Shown one piece after another: positions 1 through 54,210 of a DNA stretch of 64,000 nt. The notes beneath the pieces are model-generated. The model did no database searches and was not told the DNA's origin. It worked only from the letters and a program-made list of their open reading frames with translations. The stretch comes from Sulfurovum sp. TSL6. GTDB lineage: Bacteria; Campylobacterota; Campylobacteria; Campylobacterales; Sulfurovaceae. A program made the position numbers and the translations under genes. The stretch is taken from assembly GCF_019972115.1 (NCBI RefSeq), contig NZ_BPFJ01000001.1:124001-188000 (forward strand), read 5' to 3'. The stretch's first letter is position 1. Every line of letters begins with the position of its first letter.

Positions 1-1044
1 TGCTTTTTTGAATGTTTTGTTGACTGTAGAAGCTTTACCCGGGCTGACACGTTTTTTAAGTCTGTAGATCTTGTCCAGTCTTTTTTTGGAAGTGAGCAGA
101 TCTTCTTCATTGAAATTAAAATCATTTCTATAATGGACAGAGTTGAGGTAGTAGCGCAGGACTTCTCCGTCATAAACTTTGAGTGCATCTTTGAGAAAGA
201 AACTGTTTCCTAAAGATTTACTCATTTTTTCACCATCTATTTGTACAAAACCATTATGCATCCAGTATTTTGCGAGTTCATGTCCTGTAGCACAGCGGCT
301 TTGGGCTGCTTCATTTTCATGGTGAGGGAAAAGCAGGTCAGCACCGCCTGCGTGGATGTCTATACTGTACTCCTGCGTACCATGCTCATGCGCAAAGTGT
401 TTTTCTATCATCGCAGAACATTCGATGTGCCAACCTGGACGACCTGAAGAGAAGGGTGTTTCAAAACAGATATCCTCATTTCCTTTACACGCTTTCCAGA
501 GTGCAAAGTCTTTAGGATTTCTTTTTTCTGAAGTGTGTGCTACACGGCTTTGGTTGTCCTCATCTTCACCCACCTGGTGTGATATCTCTCCATAATGGGT
601 ATCTTTACTGGTATCAAAGTAGACATCACCTGTGGAAATGACATACGCTATGTCCTTGTCGATGAGTGTCTGTATCATGTTTTCTATCGCCTGTAGGGAC
701 TCTGTGGCTTTGGGTTCGATGTCAGGACGATGTATGCCAAGTTCTGCCATCTCTTCAAGGTAGCGGTCAATGTAAAAAGAGGTGAGCTCTTCCATGCTTT
801 TGCCTGTCTCTTCTACTTTTTTGATGATCTTGTCATCAATGTCGGTAAAGTTCTTGCCCAGTGTGACTTTGTAGTTAAGGGCTTTGAGCGTACGCGAAAG
901 AAGGTCAAAAGAGAGGCTGCTGCGTGCATGGCCTAAATGCGCATCATCATACACTGTAGGCCCGCAGACATAGATGCTTGCTTCTCCTTTACGGATGGGT
1001 TCAAAAGGAAGTTTTGTTTTTTGTACGCTGTCATAGATGTGCAT
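1..1044 (-). CDS. cysS: Cysteinyl-tRNA synthetase, 3' end cut by window edge
   Basis: Charges tRNA-Cys with cysteine in the cytoplasm. The first 348 codons are present and the frame stays open at base 1; the family is about 460 residues, so roughly the last quarter lies outside. Class I signatures are visible: a [15 protein letters not shown] block containing the HIGH-type motif (HLGH) near the N-terminus, the zinc/cysteine-site block [13 protein letters not shown], and KMSKS in [11 protein letters not shown]. The start is the ATG at 1044-1042, giving [12 protein letters not shown]. In Helicobacter cysS lies next to murJ; here they are on the same strand but separated by a divergent two-gene insert. 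Confidence 0.95.
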
Positions 1045-1227
1045 AATAATCGATAGCCCTTAAAATATGTAGTGTTGTGATTATAGCTAAAAGTTAATTA
1101 GAAGAGATACGCACAATATTTATAGATTAAACTGTCTATTTTATATTTTTTGGTTTTAGAGTAAAGGTTAACACATAATTAACACAAGGCCTATAAACTT
1201 TCATCACTAAATATAACAAGGGAAGAT

Positions 1228-3360
1228 ATGAAAATCAAATATTCATTAATAACGCTACTGGCTTTATCATCAATGAACGCAGAAGAGGTTAGTCTTGAGG
1301 CTGTGAGTGTTACAGCAACAAAGATCGCAACACCAACAAAGGATGTGTCGCAGTCAATTGTTGTGGTAGATGAGCAAACGATAGAAGATAAAAATATCTT
1401 GAATATCCAGGAAGCTATCGAAAATATACCAGGGGTAAATGCAGAGTCATCAACCAATTCACCAAGTCCTAGACTAATTATCAGGGGAGCAGGACTCAAA
1501 GCTAGATATGGTGTAAGAGAGATCATGGTGATGAAAGATGGGGTTCCTATGACGGATCCGGATTCATTTACAAGATTTGATTTTATAGATATGCAAGATG
1601 TGTCTAGTATAGAGGTTCAAAAAGGTCCAGGTTCTATCAATGCTGCAAATGCAACTGGTGGTGTAATCCAGCTTGTAACAAAATCTGTCTTTCAAGAGGG
1701 AGATGACAGAATCAAAATTGGTGTGGGTGATGATGGACAAAAAAATGTCAATCTAAAAGTTCGTGGTCAACTTGGAGAGAATGATTTTGCTTCTTTGACT
1801 TTTTCTCAACGTGAACTTGACAATGACTGGAGAGATAACAATGATTTTGATTCGACGCAAGTGAGTTTAAAACATGGTCATATCTTTGAAGATGAGGCTA
1901 CATTGGAGACAGAAGTTTCTTATACAGAATCAAATATGAACATTCCAACATCCATGACAGAAGAGGAATTTGAAATCTTTAAAGAAACGGGAGAACAACA
2001 TGATACAGATGCCCAATGGCAGCATAGTGCAAGAGATTCTAAAATCCTTTCTTTCAATACCAAATATGAAAAAGAGATCGGTGATCTACTCTTGAAACCA
2101 AGATTTTACTTTAACACGTGGGAACATTTTCACCCTGTAACAGGTTTGATCAATGACAGTGATGACAACAGTGTGTATGGAACTGATTTGGAACTTAACT
2201 ATAATCATAAAGTATTTGATAAGGAAGCAATCCTTGTGGCAGGTGTAACATATAAAACGGATATAACTAATGATGCCAAAAAGTATGAGTATGCAGATTT
2301 AAATTATGTTGATGAAACATATTATACTTCCAGTGGTCCAAGGACTAGAACTGTAATCGGAAATACTGAATCAAATAATAAAGGTGATCTGGCACAAATA
2401 GAAGATAGTACGACAACACTTTATGGTCTGTATTTGATGGAAACATTTTCTCTAACTGAAGATATCACTATAGATATGAGTACAAGAGTTGATAAATTAA
2501 AGATAGATATCAGTGGAAATGAGATAACGGCTTATGATTATGGAGCAAAAGATTATGTCACTGGTGCTGGACTTTACAGTATAGATAAAACATATAATCT
2601 CTTTTCTGCAAAACTTGGGGCGATATACAAACTAACAGACACAACCAATATGTATGCATCTGTTGCTACAGCGAACCAAGCGCCTACGGGAAGTGAGATT
2701 GAATCGGCGCAAGATCAAGGGATTTCACTTGATAAAAGTACAAATGTAAATTATGAAATTGGTCTTAAAACGAGAACAAACAATCTTTCATTAGATTTGG
2801 CAATCTATCAAAATGATGTAGATGATGAGATCATACAGATCCAAGATGCAGATGGTAATGTCATTTATGATAATGCTGGTAAAACAAGAAAAAGAGGTTT
2901 AGAACTTAATAGTGTTTATAGAGTTTCAAATGAATTGGACTTAGGTGGTTCTTATGCCTATAGTGATTTTGAATTTGTTACATTTGAGGAGCAGGTAGGC
3001 TATGGTGGTGGTGCAGAATGGGTATCAAGAGATGGTAACACCTTGCCTTATATCCCTAAAAACCAATACTCTCTGTTTGCAGCATATAGAATGGAAAACG
3101 GATTTAAAGCAAGAGTGACGACAAAAAGCTGGGGAAGTTACTATATGGATAATGCAAATACCCAAAAGTATGAAGGGTATGACTTTGTCACTGACCTGAT
3201 GATAGGGTATGAATATCAAGCGCATAATATACAGTTAAATGTAAGAAACTTGACAAACGAGTATTATGCAATGCAGGCTTCAAAAGATGCGAATGGAAAT
3301 GTGTCATATAAAGCAGCAGCACCTCAAAGTTTCATGGTGACTTACAGTTATGATTTTTAA
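1228..3360 (+). CDS. TonB-dependent outer-membrane receptor
   Basis: A 710-residue outer-membrane receptor. It has a short signal peptide (ending near MNAEE), an N-terminal plug (about residues 25-160, with IENIPGVNAESS, an IRGAG block, and GPGSINAANATGGVI) and a beta-barrel ending in an aromatic terminal strand (YSYDF). A good ribosome site (AAGGGAAG) precedes the ATG. The gene is followed after 10 bp by a membrane iron-sulfur protein, so the two are probably one operon. The ligand cannot be read from the sequence. A metal is plausible because the partner has a Cys/Met-rich tail, but siderophore or haem uptake is not excluded. Confidence 0.9.
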   Translation: MKIKYSLITLLALSSMNAEEVSLEAVSVTATKIATPTKDVSQSIVVVDEQTIEDKNILNIQEAIENIPGVNAESSTNSPSPRLIIRGAGLKARYGVREIMVMKDGVPMTDPDSFTRFDFIDMQDVSSIEVQKGPGSINAANATGGVIQLVTKSVFQEGDDRIKIGVGDDGQKNVNLKVRGQLGENDFASLTFSQRELDNDWRDNNDFDSTQVSLKHGHIFEDEATLETEVSYTESNMNIPTSMTEEEFEIFKETGEQHDTDAQWQHSARDSKILSFNTKYEKEIGDLLLKPRFYFNTWEHFHPVTGLINDSDDNSVYGTDLELNYNHKVFDKEAILVAGVTYKTDITNDAKKYEYADLNYVDETYYTSSGPRTRTVIGNTESNNKGDLAQIEDSTTTLYGLYLMETFSLTEDITIDMSTRVDKLKIDISGNEITAYDYGAKDYVTGAGLYSIDKTYNLFSAKLGAIYKLTDTTNMYASVATANQAPTGSEIESAQDQGISLDKSTNVNYEIGLKTRTNNLSLDLAIYQNDVDDEIIQIQDADGNVIYDNAGKTRKRGLELNSVYRVSNELDLGGSYAYSDFEFVTFEEQVGYGGGAEWVSRDGNTLPYIPKNQYSLFAAYRMENGFKARVTTKSWGSYYMDNANTQKYEGYDFVTDLMIGYEYQAHNIQLNVRNLTNEYYAMQASKDANGNVSYKAAAPQSFMVTYSYDF

Positions 3361-3370
3361 AGGAGAATAG

Positions 3371-4861
3371 ATGGTGGAGTTCAAAGAAACTAGAGATAGA
3401 AATGATATATACGGCATGCTCGTACTAGGATTTTTATTTAAAAACCAAACATTCTTGATGGCATTGAAACTCTGTGTTCTTGCTCTCTTCATTTACGGTG
3501 TATATATGGGATTTTCTGATCCTGGTGAGGAAAATATCTTTACTCAGCATCTCTTCTGGGGGCTTTTTTGGTCCCTTTTTATAGTGGTGACACTTACTAC
3601 CTTTGGTAGAATTTTTTGCGGTATCTGTCCTCATGGATTTTTAGGGAAATATATCACTAAATTCGGTCTTAAAAAAGAGATGCCACACTTTTTGAAAAAT
3701 AGATTTATCGGTATTTTCATTCTTTTTTTTGGATGGTGGGCCATCTACTATACGGTACCTGGATTCTGGAAAGTACCACTTGCCACAGCTTGGCTTTTTA
3801 CTGGTATTACATTGGTTGCTTTTGTGATGTATTATCTTTATAAAGATATGAGCTATTGTAAATATATCTGTCCTATTGGAACTTTGACAAAAGCCTATGC
3901 AAAAGTGTCATTTACGGAGTTGGGTACGTATAAAGAAGATTGCAACAGTTGTAAAACATTGGATTGTGCAGTTGCTTGTTCTTACAACCTCAATCCATTT
4001 TCTTTTGATAATAAAAACTCCATGGATGACTGTACACTTTGTATGGATTGTAGCAGTGCCTGTGATTCTGTTGCTTTTAGGTTTACGAAACCTTCACGGT
4101 CATTGTTTGAAAAATTCAAGTTCAATAAAGTAGAAGTGTGGGCATTTATACTCATTACTGCGGCCATTTCCATTACGATGAGCTTTCACCATGGTCTTAA
4201 TCGTTCAGCTATTGCAGATGAATTTATCTGGTCGAAAACTGCAGTGTTTGTACAACAGTATATAGACTTTGGTACACTCGATGCAGTCGGACTGTTTGCA
4301 TTTATCTATGCTACATTATTTGCGACAGGTATTGTCTATATCGGAATGTTTGTGGCTTCAAAGGTGTTAAAAGCACCTTTTGACAAGACGTTTTATACAT
4401 TAGGTTATGCCTTTGCCCCTTTGTTCCTTATTGGTGGATTGGCGCACTTGATACATAGTTTCTTTACACACAATTATGCAGATATAGCCAATGGTTTCAT
4501 TTATGGATTTGGTTTAGAAGTGGCTCCGGTTGAAAACCTGGCTTCAAGAAGAGATGCCTGGTTACATATCTTTGATGTGATTCCTTATATCGCTGTACTA
4601 TGGGGGTATCTGATCCTGGCAAAAAGAATGAAGTCTTTCAACGCAACAAAGCTGAAGAAGAGCATAGCTTTTGTCTTTGCTTCTTCACTTATCACACTTT
4701 ATTTGTCAACAAATCTCTATAGTGCTTATGTGTTTAAAACATATGGTATGGCAAAAAGAGGTCATCATGAAAATCATAGTGCAGCTAAACCTGTAAAAAA
4801 AGAAACAGCAGTGATGAAATGTACAGCCGGTAAATGTGGTGGAGGAATGAAAAAAACGTAA
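3371..4861 (+). CDS. Polyferredoxin-like membrane 4Fe-4S protein (NapH/CcoG-like)
   Basis: A 496-residue integral membrane protein. Visible are transmembrane segments near residues 28-46 and 62-78, a GRIFCGICPHG loop (C83, C86), a second CKYICPIG loop, and two ferredoxin-type clusters: CNSCKTLDCAVAC (spacing CX2CX4CX3C) and CTLCMDCSSAC (canonical CX2CX2CX3C). A further set of membrane helices occupies the C-terminal half. The N-terminal half matches the NapH/NosR/CcoG electron-transfer superfamily. The last residues, MKCTAGKCGGGM, form a Cys/Met motif that could bind a soft metal. It is translated 10 bp after the TonB receptor, suggesting reduction of the imported ligand at the inner membrane (inference). 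Confidence 0.85.
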   Translation: MVEFKETRDRNDIYGMLVLGFLFKNQTFLMALKLCVLALFIYGVYMGFSDPGEENIFTQHLFWGLFWSLFIVVTLTTFGRIFCGICPHGFLGKYITKFGLKKEMPHFLKNRFIGIFILFFGWWAIYYTVPGFWKVPLATAWLFTGITLVAFVMYYLYKDMSYCKYICPIGTLTKAYAKVSFTELGTYKEDCNSCKTLDCAVACSYNLNPFSFDNKNSMDDCTLCMDCSSACDSVAFRFTKPSRSLFEKFKFNKVEVWAFILITAAISITMSFHHGLNRSAIADEFIWSKTAVFVQQYIDFGTLDAVGLFAFIYATLFATGIVYIGMFVASKVLKAPFDKTFYTLGYAFAPLFLIGGLAHLIHSFFTHNYADIANGFIYGFGLEVAPVENLASRRDAWLHIFDVIPYIAVLWGYLILAKRMKSFNATKLKKSIAFVFASSLITLYLSTNLYSAYVFKTYGMAKRGHHENHSAAKPVKKETAVMKCTAGKCGGGMKKT

Positions 4862-4893
4862 CACCTGTCTTACGGTAGAAGAACAAAATCAAA

Positions 4894-4919
4894 AAGCTAA
4901 AGTCTCTTTTCTTTAGCTT
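4894..4919 (-). terminator. Hairpin terminator for murJ
   Basis: Stem AAGCTAAAG, 8-nt loop, and complementary stem CTTTAGCTT lie between the convergent iron-sulfur gene and murJ. Read on the minus strand the stem is followed by a T-rich run (TTTGATTTTG), as expected of a Rho-independent terminator for murJ. The plus-strand side lacks a T run. Confidence 0.6.
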
Positions 4920-4927
4920 GGAAACAT

Positions 4928-6334
4928 TTATCGTATATACCCCAATAACATTTGATTTATTGCATAGAGTAATAAAGAAAACAGTATCATTCCTATAAGT
5001 AAATAAAGAGATCTTTTTGATCTTATGATTTCCATAAATTTATCTGTACCAACCTCTTTCACGGTGAGGATAAAAAGCACCCATCCACCTATACTTCCAG
5101 CCAATGCTAGACCAGAAGCACCAAGAGGGTGCATGAGTATCAGTGAAAATGTTACAGAGGTAACCAAGGAGTAAACGGCAATTTTAGCGGCTTTGAGGTG
5201 TCTATGTGAGGCATAGAGAAAAAGAGAAAAAAGTTTTGCAAGTCCAAAAGGAAGCAAGCCTACCATATACATTTGAAGTACGCTTACCGTTTCGAGTGTT
5301 TGCACGCTTGTAAATTTTCCTCTCTCAAAGAGCAACCATACGATAGGTTCGGCCAGTAAGATACCGCCAACCATTGCAGCGCCTAGCAAAAATGAAAGTA
5401 ACCAAAAAGCTTGGTTCAAGTTTTTATACGCCTCTGTTTCATTTTTGTTTTTAAGGGCTTTTGAGACAGAAGGGAAAAGTACAGTAGCTGTAGCGATAGC
5501 AATGATGGCAAGAGGAAGCTGGAAGACACGGTTGGCATAAAAGAGATAAGAGACAGAACCTGTCATGAGGAAGGTTGCCAAAAGCGTGTCTATAAACGCA
5601 GAGATCTGAGGGGTGGAATTCCCCAGAATTCCGGGCAAAAATAGAGACTGGAAATGCTTCTTCTCTTCCTCAACATCTTTGCTTTTCCTGTATTTCCATC
5701 CCCCTACAAGGATCCTATGGAGGTTCAGCTTGTTGAGTGTGAGAAGATGGGCTGCTACCTGTAGGCCTCCACCGATGAGTACTGCAAAACTGAGTGCATA
5801 CGCGACGGTTTTTGGGTCCTCTTTCATATAAATGTAGAGTGCGGCTATCATGGAGATATTGAGCAGGGCTGTTGACATGGCTGTCGTAGCGAAATGGTTC
5901 TTGTACTGTAAAAGCGTGGCTAAGAAAGTGACGATAAAGATGAGGTCCAGGTACCAAAAGTTTATCGCGGTCAGTGGAGATGTTTTGGCTATCAGTTCTC
6001 TTCCCCAACCCAAAGCCAAAAGTTTCGTGATCGGTTCAGGAAAAAAGGTGATGAGCAGGGAAAAAGCCATCAAAAAGAGAAGAAATCGTAAAAAGATCGC
6101 TGTGGCAAAGACACCCTTGTGCTTGGAAGCGACAAATGAGGGCATAAATGCCTGTGTAAATGCACCCTCTGCAAAGATACGACGAAAAAGGTTAGGCAGT
6201 TTGAAGGCAACGAAAAACATATCACTCCACATGGAAGCACCGAGGGCTGAAGCCATAAGTACATCACGTCCTAGACCTGTAACACGTGAAAATAAGATAC
6301 CAAAACTGTTGGTGAAGATGGATTTAAGTCGCAT
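4928..6334 (-). CDS. murJ: Lipid II flippase MurJ (MviN)
   Basis: A 468-residue polytopic membrane protein of the MVF subfamily, which flips lipid II across the inner membrane for peptidoglycan synthesis. The N-terminus is characteristic (SIFTNSFGILFSRVTGLGRD), as is the FKLPNLFRRIFAEGAFTQAF block that follows. About a dozen hydrophobic helices run through to the C-terminus. Length fits the Campylobacterota family. It reads away from ruvA and in the same direction as cysS. The ATG at 6334 is the only start that keeps the conserved N-terminus. Confidence 0.93.
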   Translation of the reverse strand: MRLKSIFTNSFGILFSRVTGLGRDVLMASALGASMWSDMFFVAFKLPNLFRRIFAEGAFTQAFMPSFVASKHKGVFATAIFLRFLLFLMAFSLLITFFPEPITKLLALGWGRELIAKTSPLTAINFWYLDLIFIVTFLATLLQYKNHFATTAMSTALLNISMIAALYIYMKEDPKTVAYALSFAVLIGGGLQVAAHLLTLNKLNLHRILVGGWKYRKSKDVEEEKKHFQSLFLPGILGNSTPQISAFIDTLLATFLMTGSVSYLFYANRVFQLPLAIIAIATATVLFPSVSKALKNKNETEAYKNLNQAFWLLSFLLGAAMVGGILLAEPIVWLLFERGKFTSVQTLETVSVLQMYMVGLLPFGLAKLFSLFLYASHRHLKAAKIAVYSLVTSVTFSLILMHPLGASGLALAGSIGGWVLFILTVKEVGTDKFMEIIRSKRSLYLLIGMILFSLLLYAINQMLLGYIR

Positions 6335-6470
6335 AGTTTTCTTTAATTTTAAATTAAATGTATTTTAGCGTAATGTTGATATGAATTAAAAACATGTCAA
6401 TTTGACATATTTATCCATTTGAACTTAAACACTTGATATACTTTGAACACTTAAATAAATGAGGGTAGAT

Positions 6471-7028
6471 ATGATAGTAGGTATAGAAGGTACAGTAGAA
6501 AGAAAAGAGCCCACTTTTGTTCATCTGAATGTGAACGGATTGATCTATGAAGTGATGGTTTCTCTTCATACATCAAATGCTATAACAGACAAAAAAACCA
6601 AACTGTTTGTGACACAGGTCATACGTGAAGATGCCAATCTTCTTTTTGGATTTATGGATAGAAATGAACAAAAGATGTTTGACACTGTCTTGAAGATAAA
6701 CGGGGTAGGGCCTAAAGTAGGACTGGCTATCTGTTCCACTTTTACGCCTACCACTTTTGCAAAAGTAGTTGCTTCCAAAGATGTCAGTATGCTCAAGCGT
6801 GTACCTGGCATTGGGCCTAAGGCAGCGGGCCGTATCTTGGTTGAATTGGCTGACTTTATAGTAGATGGTCACGAGGAGAATGAGAACAGTGGCGCGTTAA
6901 ATGAAGCAACGATGGCTCTTGAGAGTTTAGGATTTAAAAAAGATGCCATTCAAAAAGCATTGCACGGGTGCAGTGGTGATACGAGTACATTGGTTAAAGA
7001 GGGATTGAAAAAGTTACAGAGACTATAG
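6471..7028 (+). CDS. ruvA: Holliday junction branch-migration protein RuvA
   Basis: A 185-residue junction-binding subunit of the RuvAB resolvasome. Domain I begins [14 protein letters not shown]. The two helix-hairpin-helix motifs are seen as [13 protein letters not shown] and [12 protein letters not shown], and the C-terminal RuvB-binding domain runs from about residue 140. An upstream in-frame ATG at 6459 exists, but the ATG at 6471 matches the family N-terminus and has GAGGGT at the right distance, so I chose it. In Helicobacter the order ruvA / mviN / cysS is also seen. Confidence 0.95.
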
Positions 7029-7038
7029 GCGTATCGGT

Positions 7039-7866
7039 TTATACTCTTGTAAATACCAGTTCTTTGACATTGTGTCCTATTTCTTCTGCTACGACAGAAC
7101 ACTTGACAACAAAAAGAAAATAGATGGGACGTTTGGCGACATTATAGAGACTTTCAAAGTTACCCATCCCTTTGGAAAGTACGATATCTGCACGATCAAA
7201 GATCTTTTTTGAGATACTGCTGGCTTCTTCAAGATCAAAACCTGGTGTTCTCACACCTGTATCGACAATGTGGGCACAATCTTTGAGTAGTTGTCCCTCT
7301 TTGAGAGTGACATCATTGATGATGGGTTTGCCTCTGACAAAGTAGTGGACAGTGATATCATAATGCTTTTTAATGGTCTCTATCAGCAGTTTGTCGAAAA
7401 TATGTTCTCCAACATTATCAGCGAGGAGTACCATCTCTTTAGCATGCTGTAATTCTCTGATGAAGTTTTCAGTATCATCGATGGCAAATTTTTTATGTAA
7501 ATGATATTGGATCATTTCGTCCAGATCTAACTGCTCTTGCGCTCCAAAATCAATGACATTCCCGATAACGGCCATTTTAAGTGCATCGGGAATGGTGTAT
7601 ATGCAAGAGGTATCTATGTTTAATGCTTGTTCGGTAGCATATGCTTTTGCAAGGGCTACGGGATCTTTCTCTCCAGTGACATCAGATATGGCCTGATAAA
7701 TATCCCTTGCGATCTGTGGAGGAGTACTAGACATAGTATGGTCCATTAGAACCTGTGCAGTTTTATTGAACACTTTTTTACTTGTGTCATCATCAAGTTT
7801 CAAAAGTTTAGTCACCCTGAGGGCTTGATCAAATAAACAGGATAAACAGTCAGGTTTGATATTCAT
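7039..7866 (-). CDS. DUF89 / ARMT1-like metal-dependent phosphatase family protein
   Basis: A 275-residue protein with an N-terminal CxxC (C7, C10 in PDCLSCLFDQ) typical of subgroup I prokaryotic DUF89 proteins. It also has the family motifs LLADNVGEHIFDKLL, RGKPIINDVT and DIVLSKGMGNFESL, which form the metal and phosphate site. Characterised DUF89 members are damage-control phosphatases that remove aberrant phosphometabolites; the substrate here is unknown. It converges on ruvA with 10 bp between the stops and is probably transcribed alone. Confidence 0.85.
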   Translation of the reverse strand: MNIKPDCLSCLFDQALRVTKLLKLDDDTSKKVFNKTAQVLMDHTMSSTPPQIARDIYQAISDVTGEKDPVALAKAYATEQALNIDTSCIYTIPDALKMAVIGNVIDFGAQEQLDLDEMIQYHLHKKFAIDDTENFIRELQHAKEMVLLADNVGEHIFDKLLIETIKKHYDITVHYFVRGKPIINDVTLKEGQLLKDCAHIVDTGVRTPGFDLEEASSISKKIFDRADIVLSKGMGNFESLYNVAKRPIYFLFVVKCSVVAEEIGHNVKELVFTRV

Positions 7867-7899
7867 GTCACATATCCTTCAAATGATGCTCACAAAGAT

Positions 7900-8070
7900 T
7901 TAGTTAGAAAGAATGTAAATGAATGCAAGGTAGCTTAGAAATCCACCTAAGATCCAAGCAACTATATGTATAATCCTAATTTTACATTTTTCTTCATCTT
8001 TCTCAGTCAATTCATTTATTATTTTATGAGCATTTTCTAGCTCTTTTTCCAGTTCTTCAATTGTTTTCAT
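7900..8070 (-). CDS. Small membrane protein with N-terminal coiled coil
   Basis: A 56-codon ORF beginning MKTIEELEKELENAHKIINE. The first 30 residues are a charged heptad-like helix. They are followed by a hydrophobic segment of about 20 residues (IVAWILGGFLSYLAFIYIL) that would span the membrane. An AAAGGC sequence lies just upstream of the ATG. The amphipathic-plus-TM layout and good start make translation likely. I do not recognise a family, and no function can be assigned. Confidence 0.55.
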   Translation of the reverse strand: MKTIEELEKELENAHKIINELTEKDEEKCKIRIIHIVAWILGGFLSYLAFIYILSN

Positions 8071-8291
8071 ATTTAGCCTTTGTTATGTAACTAATTATAA
8101 AGTTTCAAGCTTTAAATATCTTGTTTTTATTACTTATATTCTCTATCAATATTGATACAGTAAAACAGCAGTAGTTTGACCAAATATTATATCCAAGTTT
8201 GATATTCACTGAATTCTTGACTCATCTTCTTTTTGATTACTGTATGAGTGTGTGGTAAAGGATGTCTTATTAAAATGGCAACTAAGATATG

Positions 8292-8570
8292 TTATGTTTT
8301 TTGTATGATCCGTCTAGCGGAGACAAATGTTTTGGCATAGCTTCTATGGGTTAGAGGTGATATAATGATGCCTTGCTTTTTAGAGGCAGCATGGATAAAC
8401 TTTCCATTGCCTATGTAGATACCCACGTGAGTGATAGGAATCCCTCTTTTTTTATCAGTGAGAAAGAAGAGTAGATCTCCTTTTTGCAGTTCATCTCTCT
8501 CAATGGCTTGACCTTGTTTGGTTTGATAATATCCGGAGCATAGACAATCAGAGGAATTTTGTATCTCCAA
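8292..8570 (-). pseudogene. NlpC/P60 peptidase remnant lacking the catalytic start
   Basis: About 92 residues match the C-terminal half of an NlpC/P60 cell-wall peptidase: ELQKGDLLFF, the histidine block ITHVGIYIGNGKFIHAAS, and a closing ARRII. The expected N-terminal part with the nucleophile block (DCSG followed by about 20 residues before the QG..I segment) is missing. Upstream, pieces such as RFRFGDTKF appear in another frame and are interrupted by a stop, and SSDCLCSGYY is followed immediately by the QG segment. This looks like an internal deletion plus frameshift. Confidence 0.65.
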
Positions 8571-21779: not shown

Positions 21780-22748
21780 ATGACGGCCAGAGAAGCCATT
21801 AAAATACTGGAAGATAGAATGAATGCAGCTGTTTTAGGACAGGAGCATATTGTTTCAAGATTGATTATGGGATTGCTTGCCGATGGTAATATACTGGTGG
21901 AAGGATTGCCGGGACTGGCAAAGACCAGAGCTGTACGTGCCATGGCAGATGCGATCGAAGGTAAATTTTCACGTATACAGTTTACGCCTGATCTGCTTCC
22001 CTTGGATGTGATAGGAACGCAGCTGTTGCACGATGAGAAGGGGAAACAAACCTTCCATTTTCATCCGGGCCCTATCTTTGGAAATATTATCTTGGCTGAT
22101 GAGATCAATCGTGCCCCAGCCAAAATACAATCAGCCATGCTTGAAGCGATGGAAGAACGACAGGTGACGGTAGCAGGGAAAACACATAAACTTCCTCAAC
22201 TCTTCATCGTGATGGCCACACAAAACCCTTTGGAACAAGAGGGAACTTTCCCTTTGTCAGAAGCACAAAAAGACCGTTTTTTCATGCATGTGAAGATTGA
22301 TTATGCGAAGATGGATGCAGAATTTCAAATGATCAAAATGATACAAGAAGAGAGATTTAATGCGCCTGCACCTCAGGCAAAGATCTCGCAGGAGATGATC
22401 TTTGCCGCACGCCGTGAGGTTGCGCAAGTGAAATTCAGTGATGCACTGGGGCATTATATGGTAGAGCTTGTATTTGCCACACGTTATCCGCTTAGATACA
22501 GCAAACAACTTGAAGTGATGATAGACGTTGGGGTAAGTCCACGTGCAACCCTGGCACTTACCCAATGTGCTCAAGCCAATGCATGGATGCATGGCAGAGA
22601 TGAAATGACAGTGCAAGATGTACAGGCCGTGATACACGATGTCTTTCATCATCGGTTGGTTATCAGTGAACATGCCCTTCAAAATAAAAGAACTGCAGAA
22701 GGGATCATAGATATTATTTTAGAACAGGTACCATTTCCAAAGGCTTAG
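21780..22748 (+). CDS. MoxR-family AAA+ ATPase
   Basis: A 322-residue AAA+ chaperone-like ATPase. Walker A is GLPGLAKTR (about residues 43-51), Walker B is ILADEINRAPAKIQSA, followed by sensor motifs (ATQNPLEQEGTFPLSEAQ) and a lid domain. MoxR proteins usually act with DUF58 and VWA proteins encoded just downstream. None follow here; the gene instead converges (4-bp overlap of ends) on the broken thioredoxin. It begins 68 bp after the TRAP gene. Confidence 0.9.
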   Translation: MTAREAIKILEDRMNAAVLGQEHIVSRLIMGLLADGNILVEGLPGLAKTRAVRAMADAIEGKFSRIQFTPDLLPLDVIGTQLLHDEKGKQTFHFHPGPIFGNIILADEINRAPAKIQSAMLEAMEERQVTVAGKTHKLPQLFIVMATQNPLEQEGTFPLSEAQKDRFFMHVKIDYAKMDAEFQMIKMIQEERFNAPAPQAKISQEMIFAARREVAQVKFSDALGHYMVELVFATRYPLRYSKQLEVMIDVGVSPRATLALTQCAQANAWMHGRDEMTVQDVQAVIHDVFHHRLVISEHALQNKRTAEGIIDIILEQVPFPKA

Positions 22749-22947
22749 GTAAAGAGTCGACTGAAGAATGATCCTTTGCCTGCCAGTTTGTCTATGAGCT
22801 CGAAGTAGTATGATTCGTGTTTGAGTCCTATTTCAGGATAGTTGAGCTTGAGTACGGCGATGGTAAATGGTACAGAACGTACTTTGAATGTAGATGCGAG
22901 TTTAGGGTTACTCGAGACGTCACATTTCATCACTTTTACCCCATTCT
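22745..22947 (-). pseudogene. Thioredoxin gene, 3' half, split by the 3.3-kb element
   Basis: Encodes the C-terminal 65 residues of a thioredoxin: GVKVMKCDVSSNPKLA, then the cis-proline loop KVRSVPFT. The N-terminal half with the CGPC active site lies at 26276-26422. Joining the two at one copy of ATTCT gives an uninterrupted 114-codon frame. A longer apparent ORF reaching 23083 merely runs through the terminal repeat of the inserted element and is not a gene. Confidence 0.9.
22943..22947. repeat. Target-site duplication, left copy (ATTCT)
   Basis: The five bases ATTCT directly outside the left terminal repeat recur directly outside the right one at 26276-26280. Confidence 0.85.
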
Positions 22948-22983
22948 TGTCAGTTCCAACAAAAAACTCTAAAATCCAATGAA
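22948..22983 (+). repeat. Left terminal inverted repeat of the element
   Basis: 36 bp beginning TGTCAGTTCCAACAAAAAAC. It matches the reverse complement of 26240-26275 at 31 of 36 positions, and weaker similarity (CTACAA) continues inward. Confidence 0.88.
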
Positions 22984-23007
22984 AAATACTACAAGCTTTT
23001 AGAAGCA

Positions 23008-23052
23008 AAAACCTTATAAAATATACCATAGTATCATGTTTTATAAGGTTTT
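23008..23052. repeat. Palindromic repeat, copy 1 (long loop)
   Basis: Perfect 13-bp arms (AAAACCTTATAAA and complement) around a 19-nt loop; other copies have about 9 nt. It lies 24 bp inside the left terminal repeat. Confidence 0.85.
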
Positions 23053-23099
23053 CTATTGGAAGGGGAGATTTTATGGACTGCAAACGTCGCTACAGCGAT

Positions 23100-23133
23100 A
23101 AACCTTATAAAATATGTTAGATTATAAGGTTTT
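23100..23133. repeat. Palindromic repeat, copy 2
   Basis: Slightly shortened arms (AAACCTTATAA / TTATAAGGTTT). Only 47 bp separate it from copy 1, as if the space between were an empty unit. It lies just downstream of the leftward gene at 23165. Confidence 0.85.
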
Positions 23134-23164
23134 GGTTTTATTCAGTATTTGATATTCTATAAAA

Positions 23165-23734
23165 CTATTCTGATAAGACAAAATGATTTACTATTGGTGT
23201 AGTATGTTCCCAATGTAAAAGTTTTATTTTATACTTGCTAAACAAGTCCTTAGCACTAATTACTTCATAAATAACCCTACTATCTTCTTGAGTGAGAATA
23301 CCTGCATCTGGAAACATATGATTGTATGTTTCTTGAGAGTAGAGATCTCCCATATAATATCGAGCATAGCCAGGTGAATAATAAATTTCCAATGAGTCGT
23401 TGATTTTCAAAAGAGTTATTCTGTCATTCTTGCTTGCTAGATGACTTTTCCATTTTCTGTGTTTACCAACTGCTTCATTTATACCTATTCCATCATATTC
23501 ACAAATTAAAGTATCACTTACTGTAAACTTCTTTCCATCTATTGAATATTCTAATTTGAAAGGAAATTCACCATAAGTTACTTTCGGTAGAGGAGGATCT
23601 GGGCTTAATTGATAGGAAATATATATAGCGAGTAAAGGTAATATAAATATCAAAAAGAAAACTGTAATGACTGACAATAACAAACTTTTTATCATAGCAG
23701 GAAAATTTTCTACTATCATATTTTTAATATTCAT
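23165..23734 (-). CDS. Membrane-anchored hypothetical protein (element cargo)
   Basis: A 189-residue protein with one N-terminal transmembrane helix (about residues 17-40, LLLSVITVFFLIFILPLLAI) and a soluble domain outside the membrane: YGEFPFKLEYSIDGKKF, KHRKWKSHL, EIYYSPGYARYYMGD. I recall similar hypothetical proteins in Firmicutes; function is unknown. The ATG at 23734 is preferred to a TTG 33 bp upstream. A 30-bp block in its 5' flank (23770-23799) recurs upstream of the methyltransferase-like gene at 51.6 kb. It occupies one interval between palindromes. Confidence 0.75.
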   Translation of the reverse strand: MNIKNMIVENFPAMIKSLLLSVITVFFLIFILPLLAIYISYQLSPDPPLPKVTYGEFPFKLEYSIDGKKFTVSDTLICEYDGIGINEAVGKHRKWKSHLASKNDRITLLKINDSLEIYYSPGYARYYMGDLYSQETYNHMFPDAGILTQEDSRVIYEVISAKDLFSKYKIKLLHWEHTTPIVNHFVLSE

Positions 23735-23769
23735 CGTGATTGTTTTCCTCTTCCTTTGATTGTGCAATT

Positions 23770-23799
23770 TCAGTATTAAGAGTATATCAGAAATGTCTT
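23770..23799. repeat. 30-bp block shared with 52381-52410
   Basis: Contains ATTAAGAGTATATCA and ends TGTCTT; 27 of 30 bases match the block at 52381. At both sites it lies between a leftward gene and a palindromic repeat. It may hold the leftward promoter or belong to the mobile unit. Confidence 0.75.
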
Positions 23800-23805
23800 C
23801 TTTTC

Positions 23806-23840
23806 AAAACCTTATAAAATATATAACTTTATGAGGTTTT
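23806..23840. repeat. Palindromic repeat, copy 3
   Basis: Arm AAAACCTTATAAA, 9-nt loop ATATATAAC, and a right arm with one change (TTTATGAGGTTTT). It lies between the divergent genes at 23734 and 23898. Confidence 0.88.
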
Positions 23841-23897
23841 CACTTTCAGAGAATTAAGATAGCATATAGTTAATAGTATTGAAAACAAAGGCTATAT

Positions 23898-24422
23898 ATG
23901 AAAAAATTTGGATTTACTCTATTGTTACTCTTAACTTCAAACATTTATTCCGAAACCATAAATGGACACACTCTACCACCTGAACCAGATCCTAAAATAA
24001 ACAACTCGACACTTCTTGGAATAGACTCAAACAATAATGGTGTAAGGGATGATGTGGAACGGTGGATATACAAGACGTATAAAGATAAACATCCTATACA
24101 TATAGATATTGCGATGCAGGCGGGAAGAGCTTATAAGAAAGTATTGGAGACTCCTAAGAGGGCTAAAGAGATTCATAATATAGTCAGTGCTCCAGTTTAT
24201 TGTGAAGGATATTTTCGTGTATTTGCTGACATGTTTGGAGACACTAAATATATTCAGCAAAAAATTTTAGGTACATCGTTTGATAATATTTATTTTAATA
24301 TTTCTGAACGAAATAATGCTTACTTGCAATATCAACAACATTTATCAGGAGATATTTATCTTGTGCCTAGACCAAGCAAGGGTAAAAACTTTTGTGACTT
24401 TAACACAAGTAAATATGAGTAG
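23898..24422 (+). CDS. Secreted hypothetical protein with a DxNxNGxRDDxE motif (element cargo)
   Basis: A 174-residue protein with a signal peptide (MKKFGFTLLLLLTSNIYS), then LPPEPDPKINNSTLLGIDSN followed by NNGVRDDVERW, a calcium-loop-like signature. Two Cys late in the chain (VYCEGYF and KNFCDFN) could form a disulfide. The protein is likely periplasmic or secreted. I recognise the LPPEPDP...GVRDDVE pattern from hypothetical proteins in marine proteobacteria, but know no function. It fills the interval between palindrome copies 3 and 4; copy 4 starts 4 bp past the stop. Confidence 0.75.
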   Translation: MKKFGFTLLLLLTSNIYSETINGHTLPPEPDPKINNSTLLGIDSNNNGVRDDVERWIYKTYKDKHPIHIDIAMQAGRAYKKVLETPKRAKEIHNIVSAPVYCEGYFRVFADMFGDTKYIQQKILGTSFDNIYFNISERNNAYLQYQQHLSGDIYLVPRPSKGKNFCDFNTSKYE

Positions 24423-24425
24423 TAA

Positions 24426-24460
24426 AAAACCTTATAAAATATATAAATTTATTAGGTTTT
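24426..24460. repeat. Palindromic repeat, copy 4
   Basis: Arms AAAACCTTATAAA and TTTATTAGGTTTT around ATATATAAA. It begins 4 bp after the stop of the gene at 23898. Confidence 0.88.
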
Positions 24461-24526
24461 ATTAGCTGCTAATTGTTAAAGATAAGTATGAAGTTGAGTA
24501 TGAATGTTTTCTAAGAGAAAAGAAAA

Positions 24527-24556
24527 AAGGCGTACCCTAGCTTTAGGATACGCCTT
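24527..24556 (-). terminator. Rho-independent terminator (bidirectional)
   Basis: Stem AAGGCGTA..CCTA with complementary TAGG..TACGCCTT, a short loop, and T runs on both strands (GCTTTTTTTT to the right, TTTTTTC on the minus strand). It sits 21 bp beyond the stop of the 48-aa secreted peptide gene. It is GC-richer than the palindromic repeats, so those are not needed as terminators here. Confidence 0.85.
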
Positions 24557-24577
24557 GCTTTTTTTATTCACAATATA

Positions 24578-24724
24578 TTAAAATGAACCACCAAGATATG
24601 CATCCCAGTGTCCAGAATTATCTGGTATTCCTGAGCCAGCTTGATCTACTGGTGCAGGATGATGTGCCATAGCGCTTGAAGCTAAACCGATTGTTAGAAG
24701 TAAGATTGCTGTAAATTTTTTCAT
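24578..24724 (-). CDS. 48-residue secreted peptide precursor (element cargo)
   Basis: Short ORF: MKKFTAILLLTIGLASSAMA is a clear signal peptide with an A-M-A cleavage site. It leaves a 28-residue mature peptide that starts HHPAPVDQ, contains GSGIPDNSGHWDAY and ends GGSF. A strong ribosome site (AAAGGA) precedes the ATG and a strong terminator follows the stop, so it is a complete transcription unit between palindrome copies 4 and 5. No Cys. The His/Pro/Gly-rich mature part could be metal-binding, structural or a signalling or antagonistic peptide; none can be shown. Confidence 0.72.
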   Translation of the reverse strand: MKKFTAILLLTIGLASSAMAHHPAPVDQAGSGIPDNSGHWDAYLGGSF

Positions 24725-24830
24725 ATTAAATCCTTTTTATTTAAATATCCATCTGATACTCAAGATCAGAACCGTGTTATTGAATTACAGAATGAAGTAT
24801 AAACAAGAAGTGTGAAACTAGTGTGAAGAG

Positions 24831-24865
24831 AAAACCTTATAAAATATATAACTTTATAAGGTTTC
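24831..24865. repeat. Palindromic repeat, copy 5
   Basis: AAAACCTTATAAA, loop ATATATAAC, right arm TTTATAAGGTTT with the last position changed. The downstream CATCTTGTTTTC also follows copy 6 (as TATCTTGTTTTT), so homology extends beyond the hairpin. Confidence 0.88.
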
Positions 24866-25027
24866 CATCTTGTTTTCCCTTTTAAATTAGTATACGTATT
24901 TGACAGACTTTGCTATAAATCTTCTATCAGTATTCCTGTATTGGATATTATGAGATTATTTTTATATGACATAAATATTACATTTAATAAGTAGAATATA
25001 ATCTATAATTAATATAAAAGGGAAACA

Positions 25028-25582
25028 ATGAAAAAATTAACCATATTAGCGAGTGCTCTATTGCTTACAACTATCTTTAGTGGATGTGCAAGTTCATCAT
25101 CACCAACTACTCCTCAAGAGGTTCGTGAATCAGTTGGTAGTGGTATGTTTAGCACTAAAAAAGACAGCTTTGTTGTAAATCGTCCATACTACAAGGTAGC
25201 GAGTTTACTTCAGAGGAATTCGAAGAAATGCCTAAATAAATCATTTAAACATACAAGTACAACACATAACGGATACTACATGCAAACAAGTACGGATCAA
25301 ATGTACTATAAGACAAAGTTTAAAAGAGGCCGCACATTATCAACTTTAGAGGTAAAAGGCGATTCAGATAGTCTACAATCAGGCATGACCTCTGCTATTT
25401 ACGGTGAGGCTTTCAAAGATGGTTATTTTATTGCAATTGTAGATTTACATAAAAAAGGTAATAAAACACAAGTTGATATTTATCGTGGTTCAATGTTAAT
25501 GGGTGTTCAAGAGGATATTGTTAACGCTATAAAGAATTGGGCAAAAACTGGATCTAGATCATGCCCAAATATTGCACCATAA
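25028..25582 (+). CDS. Lipoprotein, element cargo, first of a pair
   Basis: A 184-residue protein with a lipobox (IFSGC, Cys about residue 20). A soluble domain has conserved-looking segments FVVNRPYYKVASLLQ and MYYKTKF, and the final Cys sits in SRSCPNIAP. GGGAAA precedes the ATG. It is followed 2 bp later by a second lipoprotein gene, forming a two-gene operon in one palindrome-bounded interval. No family recognised. Confidence 0.72.
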   Translation: MKKLTILASALLLTTIFSGCASSSSPTTPQEVRESVGSGMFSTKKDSFVVNRPYYKVASLLQRNSKKCLNKSFKHTSTTHNGYYMQTSTDQMYYKTKFKRGRTLSTLEVKGDSDSLQSGMTSAIYGEAFKDGYFIAIVDLHKKGNKTQVDIYRGSMLMGVQEDIVNAIKNWAKTGSRSCPNIAP

Positions 25583-25584
25583 AT

Positions 25585-26109
25585 ATGATACGTAAATTAT
25601 TATTTTATACCCTCACTGGTATATTGCTCCTGTTGAATGGTTGTTCTTCTTCACCAGGAGCTTATCAGCAGCAGGGTACAAAAAATCTTGTAGTAAATGT
25701 CAAGGCTGATAGCAGTACATATTTAGAAGTGTATGAACTCGATGATAGAAGATGCGCTCCGAAGATGAAAGGAGAAGTGAAACTCCATAATGGAATAAAC
25801 AAGTTTGCACTTACGAATAATAAACACTATTATCTTCGTATTAATTTCAAGACATTGTCATTACTTTCTGGATCACAAAATATAACATTAGGCGGGTATA
25901 TTACACCAAAGAGTAACTACATGTATTTAATGAATGCTAGTTATGAAAATGATATGTATGATGTTGAGATTAGTAAAAAAAATTTACGGGATCATAAAGT
26001 CACAAATATGACTTTAAAACCTTTAGAAACATGTAAAGAAAACGATTCTCCACCTTTTATTGAAGTAAATTGGTTTCCTGCATTAAATAAAAGTGTTGAA
26101 GTTCTATAA
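25585..26109 (+). CDS. Lipoprotein, element cargo, second of a pair
   Basis: A 174-residue lipoprotein with signal and lipobox LLLNGC (Cys about residue 20), followed by a beta-rich domain (NLVVNVKADSSTYLEVYELD). I start it at the ATG at 25585, two bases after the upstream stop, since this gives a normal signal peptide; a longer ORF from 25561 would overlap the first gene. Translation is probably coupled to that gene. Family not recognised. Confidence 0.7.
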   Translation: MIRKLLFYTLTGILLLLNGCSSSPGAYQQQGTKNLVVNVKADSSTYLEVYELDDRRCAPKMKGEVKLHNGINKFALTNNKHYYLRINFKTLSLLSGSQNITLGGYITPKSNYMYLMNASYENDMYDVEISKKNLRDHKVTNMTLKPLETCKENDSPPFIEVNWFPALNKSVEVL

Positions 26110-26166
26110 ATCGTTTTACTTTTCATGTAAAAATGCTATTAAAAGATAATTAATATTGTCTTTTCC

Positions 26167-26201
26167 AAAACCTTATAAAATATATAAATTTATAAGGTTT
26201 T
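26167..26201. repeat. Palindromic repeat, copy 6
   Basis: Perfect 13-bp arms around ATATATAAA, 38 bp inside the right terminal repeat, mirroring copy 1 at the left end. Confidence 0.88.
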
Positions 26202-26239
26202 CTATCTTGTTTTTTTAGCCCTTAAAATTTGTAGCGTAT

Positions 26240-26275
26240 TTCAATGAATTTTAGTATTTTTTATTGGAACTGACA
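26240..26275 (-). repeat. Right terminal inverted repeat of the element
   Basis: The reverse complement begins TGTCAGTTCCAATAAAAAAT and matches the left end at 31 of 36 positions. Just outside it is the second ATTCT. Confidence 0.88.
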
Positions 26276-26280
26276 ATTCT
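26276..26280. repeat. Target-site duplication, right copy (ATTCT)
   Basis: Matches 22943-22947 directly outside the other end of the element. Confidence 0.85.
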
Positions 26281-26422
26281 CTTCTCCATACTTTTCAAGT
26301 CTCTCATCTATGAGTTTAGTGAGCATTTGACAAGGCCCGCAGGTAGGTGAGTAAAAGTCTATAAAGACCGGTTCATCATTGTTTTTTAGTATGTTTTCAT
26401 AATTTTTATCTGTGAGTTTCAT
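26276..26422 (-). pseudogene. Thioredoxin gene, 5' half, split by the 3.3-kb element
   Basis: 49 codons from the ATG at 26422: MKLTDKNYENILKNN, then FIDFYSPTCGPCQM with the CGPC active site (residues 28-31). The frame leads into the element and would stop after four more codons. The C-terminal half is at 22745-22947. The codon boundary at the insertion (AAT, from the ATTCT duplication) joins in frame to GGG GTA AAA of the other half. Function as it stands is unlikely; intact thioredoxin-like genes are at 28017 and 62250. Confidence 0.9.
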
Positions 26423-26464
26423 ATGGTATTGTACCTATGCTTTCTTTGTTTAGAAACAAATAAC

Positions 26465-52380: not shown

Positions 52381-52410
52381 TCAATATTAAGAGTATATCA
52401 AAAGTGTCTT
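52381..52410. repeat. 30-bp block shared with 23770-23799
   Basis: 27 of 30 bases match the block next to palindrome copy 3 in the 22.9-26.3-kb element. Here 26 extra bases, themselves containing GATATA and TATATC around an A run, separate it from the palindrome. Confidence 0.75.
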
Positions 52411-52436
52411 GATATAAAAAAATATATCTTCGATTG

Positions 52437-52472
52437 AAAACCTCATAAAGTTATATAATTTTATAAGGTTTT
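52437..52472. repeat. Palindromic repeat, copy 7
   Basis: Variant of the element repeat: arms AAAACCTCATAAA and TTTATAAGGTTTT-like around an AT-rich loop. It lies between the methyltransferase-like and SPFH genes. Confidence 0.8.
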
Positions 52473-52587
52473 CAAACTATATGTGATCTTCAGCCTATTT
52501 CTTATACACATTGATATAATTATTTGATTAGAACACACAAATTAAACTTTTTAGCAAAAATAAAAAAATAGAGAAACAGGAGTAAGA

Positions 52588-53583
52588 ATGCCATTTTTTG
52601 ATCCACTAGAAAGACAGCTACGCTCAGTGATACAATGGGATACTGACAATGAAGATGCATTGTTTTACAGATGGAGCAGTAACGGAGATGAGATAAAGAA
52701 TGCATCGAAACTTATCATAGGCCCTACACAAGGTTGTATTCTTGTCTATGAAGGGAAGATCAGAGCAGTGTTTGACAAAGAAGGGCTCTTCAATATCAAA
52801 ACAGACAACATACCTTTCATTACAACCCTAAAAAAGGTAATGCAGTTCTTCGAGAGTGAGCATAAAGCGGAATTTTACTTCTATAAAAAAACGATCATCA
52901 CTGATCAGAAATGGGGAACTGTAGCACCCATTAAATACATGGATCCTGTTTATGACTTCCCCGTAGAGCTTATTGCTTTTGGTAATTACAGTATGCAGAT
53001 AAAAGATCCTAAAAGTTTCTTTGTCTCTATAGTAGGAGAGCGTGAATACTTCAGTATAGAGGAACTCAGAAAGATCATTAATGCCAGAATTGTTCACCCA
53101 ATGAGTGATACATTTGCAGAATCAAAAGTATCATATAACCACATAGATGAACAGAGAGAAGAACTGGGTGATGCATTGACAGAAAAACTGGATCAGGTTT
53201 TCGATGTTTTAGGTTTTCATCTCTCCGACTTCAGGATTGAAGGAACTGAATTCGATGCAAACACTAGAGATAGAATCGGAAAGATAGCAGATACACAAGC
53301 AACTCATTTTGCAGCAAAATCAGTGGGCGTAAGTTATCAGGATATGAGAAAACTGGATGCGCTTGAAGCGGCTTCAAATAATGAAGGCGGGGCCGCAGGT
53401 GTATTTCTCGGAGCTGGCGCAGGCGAGGCATTGTCATCAGAACTCAGAAAACCTTTTCAGGAATCTGAAGCAAAACAGTCAGTAACCCAAAGACTCCAGC
53501 AGTTAAAAGAGCTTTTTACTAATGAGCTTATTACAGAAGAGGAGTTTACACAGAAGAAACAGTCTATTTTGGATGAAGTATAG
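52588..53583 (+). CDS. SPFH-domain protein with C-terminal SHOCT motif
   Basis: A 331-residue protein of the virion-core/YdjI-like SPFH group. The N-terminal region begins MPFFDPLERQLRSVIQWDTD. The SPFH core includes IELIAFGNYSMQIKDPKSF-like segments and DVLGFHLSDFRIEGTEFD. A Gly/Ala-rich linker (about 265-285) and a SHOCT motif (QRLQQLKELFTNELITEEEF) close it. SPFH proteins form membrane-associated oligomers. GGAG precedes the ATG. It abuts the zinc-ribbon gene, and palindromes 7 and 8 flank the pair. Confidence 0.82.
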   Translation: MPFFDPLERQLRSVIQWDTDNEDALFYRWSSNGDEIKNASKLIIGPTQGCILVYEGKIRAVFDKEGLFNIKTDNIPFITTLKKVMQFFESEHKAEFYFYKKTIITDQKWGTVAPIKYMDPVYDFPVELIAFGNYSMQIKDPKSFFVSIVGEREYFSIEELRKIINARIVHPMSDTFAESKVSYNHIDEQREELGDALTEKLDQVFDVLGFHLSDFRIEGTEFDANTRDRIGKIADTQATHFAAKSVGVSYQDMRKLDALEAASNNEGGAAGVFLGAGAGEALSSELRKPFQESEAKQSVTQRLQQLKELFTNELITEEEFTQKKQSILDEV

Positions 53584-54210
53584 ATGAAATGTAAGTTTTG
53601 TTCAGCCCCATTACCTAAAAAAGGTCCTATCTGTGATTATTGCGGTCAAAGAAACCCTCTGAACCTAAGAGTACTTTCAAAAGTTGATATTGAAGAGATG
53701 AGTGAAGACCACAACTGTCCAGTGTGTGACATTGCCTTTGATAATATCAATATAGGGAAAAGAGAGAGGATAGTTGTCAAAAGATGTAATGACTGTGATG
53801 GGGTATTCATAACCGAGGATATTTTAGAACACCTTATCAAAAGAGAGGCAAGTCTAAGAGTTGAAGTAGATTACAGGGTGCTTCGTTTTGTCCAGGATAA
53901 TCCCAGACAGAAACAGGAATCGGTCATTAGCTATAGAAGATGCCCAGTCTGTGAAAACATGATGCAACGAATCAACTATAGATCTGTAAGCGGCGTGATA
54001 GTTGACAGATGCCTTAGGCATGGAGTTTGGCTTGATGGAGGAGAACTTAAGCAGCTCTTTGAATGGAAAAAAGCTGGAGGATCCGCAAAAAAAAGTGAAG
54101 TTTCAAGAAATAATCAGTCATCCAATAAGGGATATATGTATGAAGAGTCAAGACTATCTTCATACTTTGACCCAATAGGTGATTTTTTCACCTGGATACA
54201 AGGTGGTTGA
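53584..54210 (+). CDS. Multi-zinc-ribbon protein with zf-TFIIB domains
   Basis: A 208-residue protein starting directly after the SPFH stop. Three Cys-rich modules: MKCKFCSAPL...CDYCGQ (residues 1-22), NCPVCDIAFDN...RCNDCDGVFI, and RCPVCENMMQ...DRCLRHGVWLDGGEL, the last two being zf-TFIIB-type. Tight coupling with SPFH suggests the two work as a pair, with this protein perhaps as adaptor. No enzymatic motif. Confidence 0.82.
   Translation: MKCKFCSAPLPKKGPICDYCGQRNPLNLRVLSKVDIEEMSEDHNCPVCDIAFDNINIGKRERIVVKRCNDCDGVFITEDILEHLIKREASLRVEVDYRVLRFVQDNPRQKQESVISYRRCPVCENMMQRINYRSVSGVIVDRCLRHGVWLDGGELKQLFEWKKAGGSAKKSEVSRNNQSSNKGYMYEESRLSSYFDPIGDFFTWIQGG

Follow-up and report, generated by a model that had tools for sequence, protein, structure and literature searches.

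The window analysed here, a 64,000-nt stretch of Sulfurovum sp. TSL6 (NZ_BPFJ01000001.1, positions 124,001-188,000; coordinates below are window positions), contains an array of palindromes that separate single genes or gene pairs. The array consists of one platform and four cassettes, and we regard it as likely that its palindromes are the recombination sites of an integron-like gene-cassette system with a short tyrosine recombinase, whose cassettes are exchanged at these sites. An initial annotation had described six hairpins in this region, and all six lie where it placed them, at 23008-23052, 23100-23133, 23806-23840, 24426-24460, 24831-24865 and 26167-26201, with the intervening contents that it gave, namely 47 bp without a gene, one gene, one gene, one gene with its own terminator, and a two-gene operon. 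With up to two mismatches allowed, the window contains 20 copies of the half-arm AAAACCTTATAAA, against a mean of 5.7 and a maximum of 11 in 100 shuffles, and single-strand folding of three of the six hairpins gives z values of -4.2 to -7.1. The hairpins do not form the single set first proposed: those at 23806, 24426, 24831 and 26167 are one class (C sites), whereas the one at 23008, with a longer and different centre, is a platform remnant containing the start region of a recombinase gene rather than a cassette site, and the one at 23100, with the centre GTTAGA, belongs to a separate class that heads the array. The features of the array are as follows.

23008-23052, unstranded: "B" hairpin, the decayed 5' end of a recombinase gene plus an outer arm (36 aligned platforms)
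23053-23099, unstranded: platform spacer, 47 bp, with CTGCAAACGTCGCTACAGCGA, conserved in 36 platforms
23100-23133, plus strand: "A" site (attI-like), centre GTTAGA, array head
23165-23767, minus strand: cassette 1 gene, 200 aa from the first possible start, ATG at 23735 likely; no family
23775-23800, unstranded: 26-bp motif TATTAAGAGTATATCARAARTGTCTT, common next to many C sites, in front of the gene starting there
23806-23840, plus strand: "C" site 1 (attC-like)
23898-24422, plus strand: cassette 2 gene, 174 aa, secreted, no family; homologous cassette in L029
24426-24460, plus strand: C site 2
24520-24565: terminator belonging to cassette 3
24578-24724, minus strand: cassette 3 gene, 48 aa, signal-peptide-like; related cassettes in L023, L083 and L084
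24831-24865, plus strand: C site 3
25028-25582, plus strand: cassette 4 gene 1, 184 aa, lipoprotein-like, no family
25561-26109, plus strand: cassette 4 gene 2, 182 aa, lipoprotein-like, no family
26167-26201, plus strand: C site 4, the last in the array

Profile searches gave no family match for any of the cassette proteins in the window. The motif TATTAAGAGTATATCARAARTGTCTT also occurs at window positions 52385-52411 and, among the loci compared (L-numbers; G-numbers denote genomes), at L025 7935-7998 and 9183, L029 7604 and 8674, L022 9634 and L024 6365. In many cassettes that are otherwise unrelated, it lies between a C site and the start of a gene that reads away from the site, and it may act as a shared promoter or belong to the site itself.

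The palindrome recurs across the TSL6 genome and across the genus. In TSL6, the two-arm pattern gives 23 and 25 matches on the two strands, against 0 for a reversed control, corresponding to approximately 32 sites in about 14 places; the site lists are pattern-based, such that decayed sites are missed and all counts are approximate, and many of the relatives are draft genomes. When the loci of relatives are included, the sites fall into two classes, A and C, which share the same left half. A sites carry the centre GTTAGA (AAAACCTTATAAAATATGTTAGATTATAAGGTTTT, with GTTAGATT in 41 of 45) and occur once per array, at its head, while C sites are 35-bp near-perfect palindromes with the centre ATAACT (ATAA[C/T/A]T across the loci) and end each cassette. 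Around 45 A sites, all 52 inner-side C sites are co-oriented with A and none is opposite. The variant TATGAGG is found in 20 of 72 C sites compared with 2 of 45 A sites, these two sharing a locus, and L108 holds a hybrid site with an A left half and a C right half. Cassettes measure a median of 1,016 bp between sites (range 374-8,370), and their largest gene is forward in 27 and reverse in 21, in agreement with the first reading that genes point both ways. That reading had also held that the sites lack the integron core GTTRRRY, which is right for the C sites, with a core GTTATAT on the other strand, and wrong for the A sites, whose GTTAGAT formally fits it.

A block of approximately 125 bp, to which B and the 47-bp spacer belong, is conserved at 36 A sites. 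In homologous platforms the B region reads AGGAGG...ATGAAAACT, a ribosome-binding and start region, and at L084 of Sulfurovum sp. AR the block runs into a short tyrosine recombinase frame on the opposite strand. There, A lies at 8159, the recombinase extends leftwards from about 8073 and the array lies to the right, so that the attI-like site stands next to a divergent recombinase gene and the order is that of an integron: a recombinase facing away, then A, then the cassettes. The recombinase has about 188 aa, carries the motifs TGARLNE, QKT, HSFR, GHSS and NYV, and matches Phage_integrase with an E value of 9e-15 (9e-15 to 4e-22 across four family members), with the tyrosine-recombinase catalytic motifs R, K, HxxR, H and Y present; its single-sequence structure prediction gave no usable fold, with a predicted local distance difference test score (pLDDT) of 36. 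In AR, this gene is flanked by two arrays, one with three C sites and the other with six. At the other platforms it is cut off just past its start, being nearly complete only in AR; L347 retains the ribosome-binding and start region (..TATAGGAGGTTTTATAATGAAAACTATTAAAGAA..), and similar starts remain at L024, L025, L072 and L087. The initial annotation had suggested looking for a co-occurring tyrosine recombinase, and the AR frame together with the starts at other platforms ties such a gene to the array head. No clearly intact copy was found in the array-bearing Sulfurovum genomes, and the AR recombinase, despite its near-completeness, may be inactive as well; we do not claim it to be active, since it has ATT in place of ATG.

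Homologues about 43% identical to this recombinase are present in Sulfurovum G054, in Campylobacterales G097 and on Arcobacter plasmids. On contig C20 of G054, a frameshifted homologue has the same arrangement in front of it, with a different, A'-like palindrome, TAAAGGTAATATTTTACTTATTTTATTACCTTTA, and a spacer whose motif CGCTGTAGCG matches CGCTACAGCG of the first type. Among 120 genomes this palindrome occurs in G054 only, in two copies that share one half and differ in the centre, which is also how A and C are related. Though a single case, it is the best evidence that the recombinase and the palindrome would belong together. A duplicated rpsR lies beside this second-type palindrome (L353 14-883) and also beside a TSL6 array (L031 4533-5598, two copies 97% alike). 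Elsewhere, plasmid pAFAEC of Aliarcobacter faecis (L349 11994-14064) carries three attC-like repeats (TATCTAACG...GTTTGTTAG) among same-strand DUF2971/DUF262 and hypothetical genes, near a frameshifted homologue of the short recombinase; these repeats are possibly a real integron array.

Besides TSL6, about 31 of 73 Sulfurovum genomes are positive for the palindrome pattern, while 47 Campylobacterales genomes of other families gave two single matches only, both chance-like. Relaxed palindromes outside Sulfurovum (Psychrobacter, Bacteroidota) are, among the matches listed, mostly of a different length class. A replicon of Sulfurovum mangrovi that is classed as a plasmid, yet carries trmD and rplS, has one platform. 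A phage origin was considered and rejected, as viral contigs contain no exact match to the A site, and the recombinase has a single weak match among them and none among phages. Random scatter of the copies between core genes had been named at the outset as an observation that would speak against cassettes; many small arrays do lie between core genes, and their contents exchange at the sites.

This exchange is seen at several levels. Cassette 2 of the window recurs in L029 amid different neighbours, and cassette 3 recurs in TSL6 itself (L023) and in Sulfurovum sp. AR (L083 and L084); the L023 and L084 copies, from two species, share 98.4% identity over 439 bp and terminate precisely at the sites, and the window copy is 82% identical to both. 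Conversely, the same chromosomal spot holds different cassettes: between fdh and yraN, arrays with unrelated cassettes are present in G000, G072, G023, G050 and G053. Many array-free genomes have fdh and yraN 0-141 bp apart with the palindrome absent, which identifies the platform as an insertion. For the same reason, an "empty" site (L028 compared with L069) was read as a decayed remnant and rejected as the original target. In the closest pair, L089 (strain NBC37-1) and L098, the sequences match through B, the spacer and the entire A site, diverge into unrelated cargo and match again from C, and L079 and L102 show a similar pattern. In exchanges between C sites, the break falls in the palindrome centre and the right halves go with the next cassette. 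The comparison proposed by the initial annotation therefore found shared cassettes in different arrays, different cassettes in the same spots, and breaks at or in the palindromes. Its analogy with integron cassettes, in the form of gene-plus-site units with a distinct type of site, gains support from these comparisons, from which we infer recombination.

The cargo includes a Na+/H+ antiporter, a GDSL hydrolase, a glyoxalase, RND and ABC efflux operons, an exonuclease and a methionine synthase, as well as defence-related AAA, SIR2-like and AbiEii proteins. PF10136 in L076, a "site-specific recombinase" by a family name that we take to be a misnomer, was treated as cargo. The same efflux-operon end adjoins A in one genome and the distal C in another (L032 6499-6912 and L093 5764-6167); the operon thus has opposite orientations with respect to the platform.

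The window array is enclosed in a 3,328-bp transposon-like unit (22948-26275) with imperfect inverted ends of about 56 bp beginning TGTCAGTTCC, inserted in a thioredoxin gene with a 5-bp target duplication, ATTCT, on either side. The features outside the array, including those of a second array that runs from right to left at 52437-54325, are as follows.

22745-22942, minus strand: interrupted thioredoxin gene, 3' part (profile positions 47-78)
22943-22947, unstranded: left target duplication ATTCT
22948-23003, plus strand: left terminal inverted repeat TGTCAGTTCCAA..., 56 bp, about 80% identical to the right one
26220-26275, minus strand: right terminal inverted repeat
26276-26280, unstranded: right target duplication ATTCT
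26281-26425, minus strand: interrupted thioredoxin gene, 5' part (profile positions 3-48)
52437-52472, minus strand: second array, C-type site
52588-54210, plus strand: second array, two-gene cassette (52588-53583 and 53584-54210)
54254-54325, plus strand: second array, platform remnant without an A site; recombinase start ATGAAAACTGTTCAAATAACT..., stop after 11 codons

The recombinase start of the second array, at 54290, is decayed, and L072, at the same chromosomal spot, has kept both B and A. Deleting the unit and one copy of ATTCT in silico restores a single 114-aa thioredoxin frame. A second unit in the TSL6 genome, at L025, measures 2,877 bp and has its own duplication, ATTGT, such that both units combine TGT...ACA inverted ends with a 5-bp target duplication; related terminal ends occur at L023, L025, L074, L086 and L094. 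At L094 (2500-4250), two platforms or A sites stand back to back with ends resembling terminal inverted repeats and an AbiE-like toxin-antitoxin pair between them. In their TGTCA ends (end sequence TGTCNGTTCCAATAAAAAACTC), inverted ends of about 50 bp and 5-bp duplications, the units resemble Tn7/Tn5053 (Tn402)-like transposons, differing in that no transposase gene lies inside (the genome was not searched for a TnsB/TniA-type transposase). Such ends belong to some platforms only, most having none, and they explain how some platforms reached new places.

Taken as a cassette system, the arrays would work as follows. A platform would consist of the A site and the 5' region of a divergent gene for the tyrosine recombinase, and a cassette of one to several genes in either orientation, closed by a C site. 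Cassettes would be gained, lost and exchanged via site-specific recombination, the recombinase cutting the centre of the palindrome and joining a circular cassette to A or C. Nearly all copies, including that of the window, would have lost the recombinase gene and kept A and the 5' region, leaving arrays that may need a recombinase provided in trans or may now be immobile, and some platforms, including the window's, would travel in the transposon-like unit with its TGTCA ends and 5-bp duplications.

Several points weigh against this interpretation. The recombinase is devoid of the N-terminal core-binding domain typical of its class, the TSL6 genome keeps only stubs of it, and the AR copy has ATT where other platforms have ATG. 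The link between enzyme and site would follow from position and one second case, and no clear palindrome array was found beside the homologues in Arcobacter plasmids and G097. Recombination at the palindromes is itself deduced from comparing genomes. Moreover, A retains its whole palindrome whatever follows, and the apparent cut points misfit one simple crossover; a reaction that is asymmetric, like that of attI with attC, could yield this pattern of breaks.

The strongest competitor, which we nevertheless judge unlikely, is that the host XerC/XerD is the enzyme acting on the palindromes, in the manner of the pdif modules on Acinetobacter plasmids, and that the platform recombinase remnant is incidental. 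In the array-bearing G041, no intact tyrosine recombinases were found besides two of Xer type, Xer is present in 12 of 12 genomes tested, and Acinetobacter is known to have gene modules flanked by short palindromic sites (PMC6449649). The resemblance extends to one- and two-gene modules that shuffle. However, Sulfurovum has one canonical dif, AATAGAATTTATATTATGTTAA, which is unlike the array sites (PMC2731167), and the inner ends ATAA and TTAT of the array sites are 11 bp apart as opposed to 6 in dif; dif-related XerC/XerD arms with a spacer of about 6 bp were not found at the sites. Their orientation within an array is uniform, with no alternation, against expectation for Xer and pdif, and Xer-bearing genomes without array sites are common. 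The Sulfurovum arrays further differ from pdif modules in being chromosomal and in having a recombinase gene of their own. Other recombinases were rejected as agents: no platform was found beside the Tn554/mobile-trio-type recombinases of G000, G028 and G072, and a phage-type integrase near a site at L021 has no platform.

A slightly weaker explanation, and again an improbable one, is that the palindromes are ordinary repeats resembling terminators or miniature inverted-repeat transposable elements, the differences between arrays arising by RecA-dependent exchange or by transposition of whole units. Intergenic hairpins can serve as terminators, and some arrays do lie inside a transposon-like unit with target duplications. 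Against this speak the uniform orientation, the two classes at fixed positions and the conserved 125-bp platform, as well as cargo swaps that end at 35-bp palindromes between matching flanks, 35 bp being short for homologous exchange.

Integrons are the textbook dedicated gene-collecting system and a main route for resistance genes. The Sulfurovum arrays share with them (class 1, chromosomal, and clusters of attC sites lacking integron integrases, CALIN) a recombinase facing away, a head site, one repeated site per cassette, a single site orientation (52 of 52), exchangeable cassettes and many arrays without an integrase, and with Tn402 the carriage of some arrays in transposons with 5-bp duplications. 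That they are a true integron lineage, of the IntI family with unusual attC sites, is nonetheless very improbable, even though the layout of a divergent integrase gene with an attI-like site between gene and array is shared, the A-site GTTAGAT fits GTTRRRY, and the Aliarcobacter plasmid has its attC-like repeats near a recombinase homologue. The integron-integrase model, with a cut-off of 265 bits, gives 26.9 bits for the AR protein and 36.8-50.3 bits for its homologues, compared with 93-106 bits for two TSL6 Xer-type genes, and the platform protein lacks the N-terminal part. The C sites are short, symmetrical 35-bp palindromes without the R''/L'' and L'/R' boxes and the GTTRRRY core of attC, the genes run both ways (27 and 21) rather than mostly in one orientation, cassettes with several genes reach about 8 kb, and each chromosome carries many tiny arrays. 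Because the recombinase falls far short of the IntI model and the sites are not attC, we file the system as integron-like in action and not as an integron. In consisting of a catalytic domain only, the enzyme resembles FimB/FimE-type short tyrosine recombinases (about 190-200 aa), to which its sequence similarity is weak and which invert one promoter segment, in contrast to the exchange of cassettes in Sulfurovum.

Least probable is the action of a Y1/HUH (IS200/RAYT-type) enzyme, which the initial annotation had offered as a candidate, or of a serine recombinase: hairpins are typical Y1 substrates, but Y1_Tnp has no match in the array-rich genomes G000, G026, G028 and G041, and the sole serine-recombinase-like gene of an array-rich genome sits beside a conserved moaC-like gene, does not conserve the nucleophile serine and is absent from G041. 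Y1 transposases are abundant in a few Sulfurovum genomes (31 matches in G039, 16 in G023) and absent in others. The resolvase-like protein without the conserved catalytic serine (L309 1498-2172, L310 1495-2181) occurs once per genome, adjoining the moaC-like gene, in 6 of 7 Sulfurovum genomes tested.

No description of the array system was found in the open-access literature searched (subscription journals were not covered). Returning to the cassette interpretation, we see roughly even chances that these arrays represent a gene-capture family separate from integrons, with a tyrosine recombinase reduced to its catalytic domain and with its own head site and palindrome, which would have become widespread in Sulfurovum and have split into two or more site specificities (the AAAACCTTATAA type and the TAAAGGTAAT type), forming many small exchangeable arrays, some of them transposon-borne. 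If so, a second system with the layout of integrons, a different recombinase and simple palindromes would mean that cassette capture evolved, or was reassembled, on more than one occasion, and would offer a simpler model of how cassettes form and move. The A site, the C site and the recombinase start provide a sequence handle for finding such arrays in metagenomes, and the arrays explain part of the gene differences among Sulfurovum genomes, including efflux pumps, transporters and defence-like genes.

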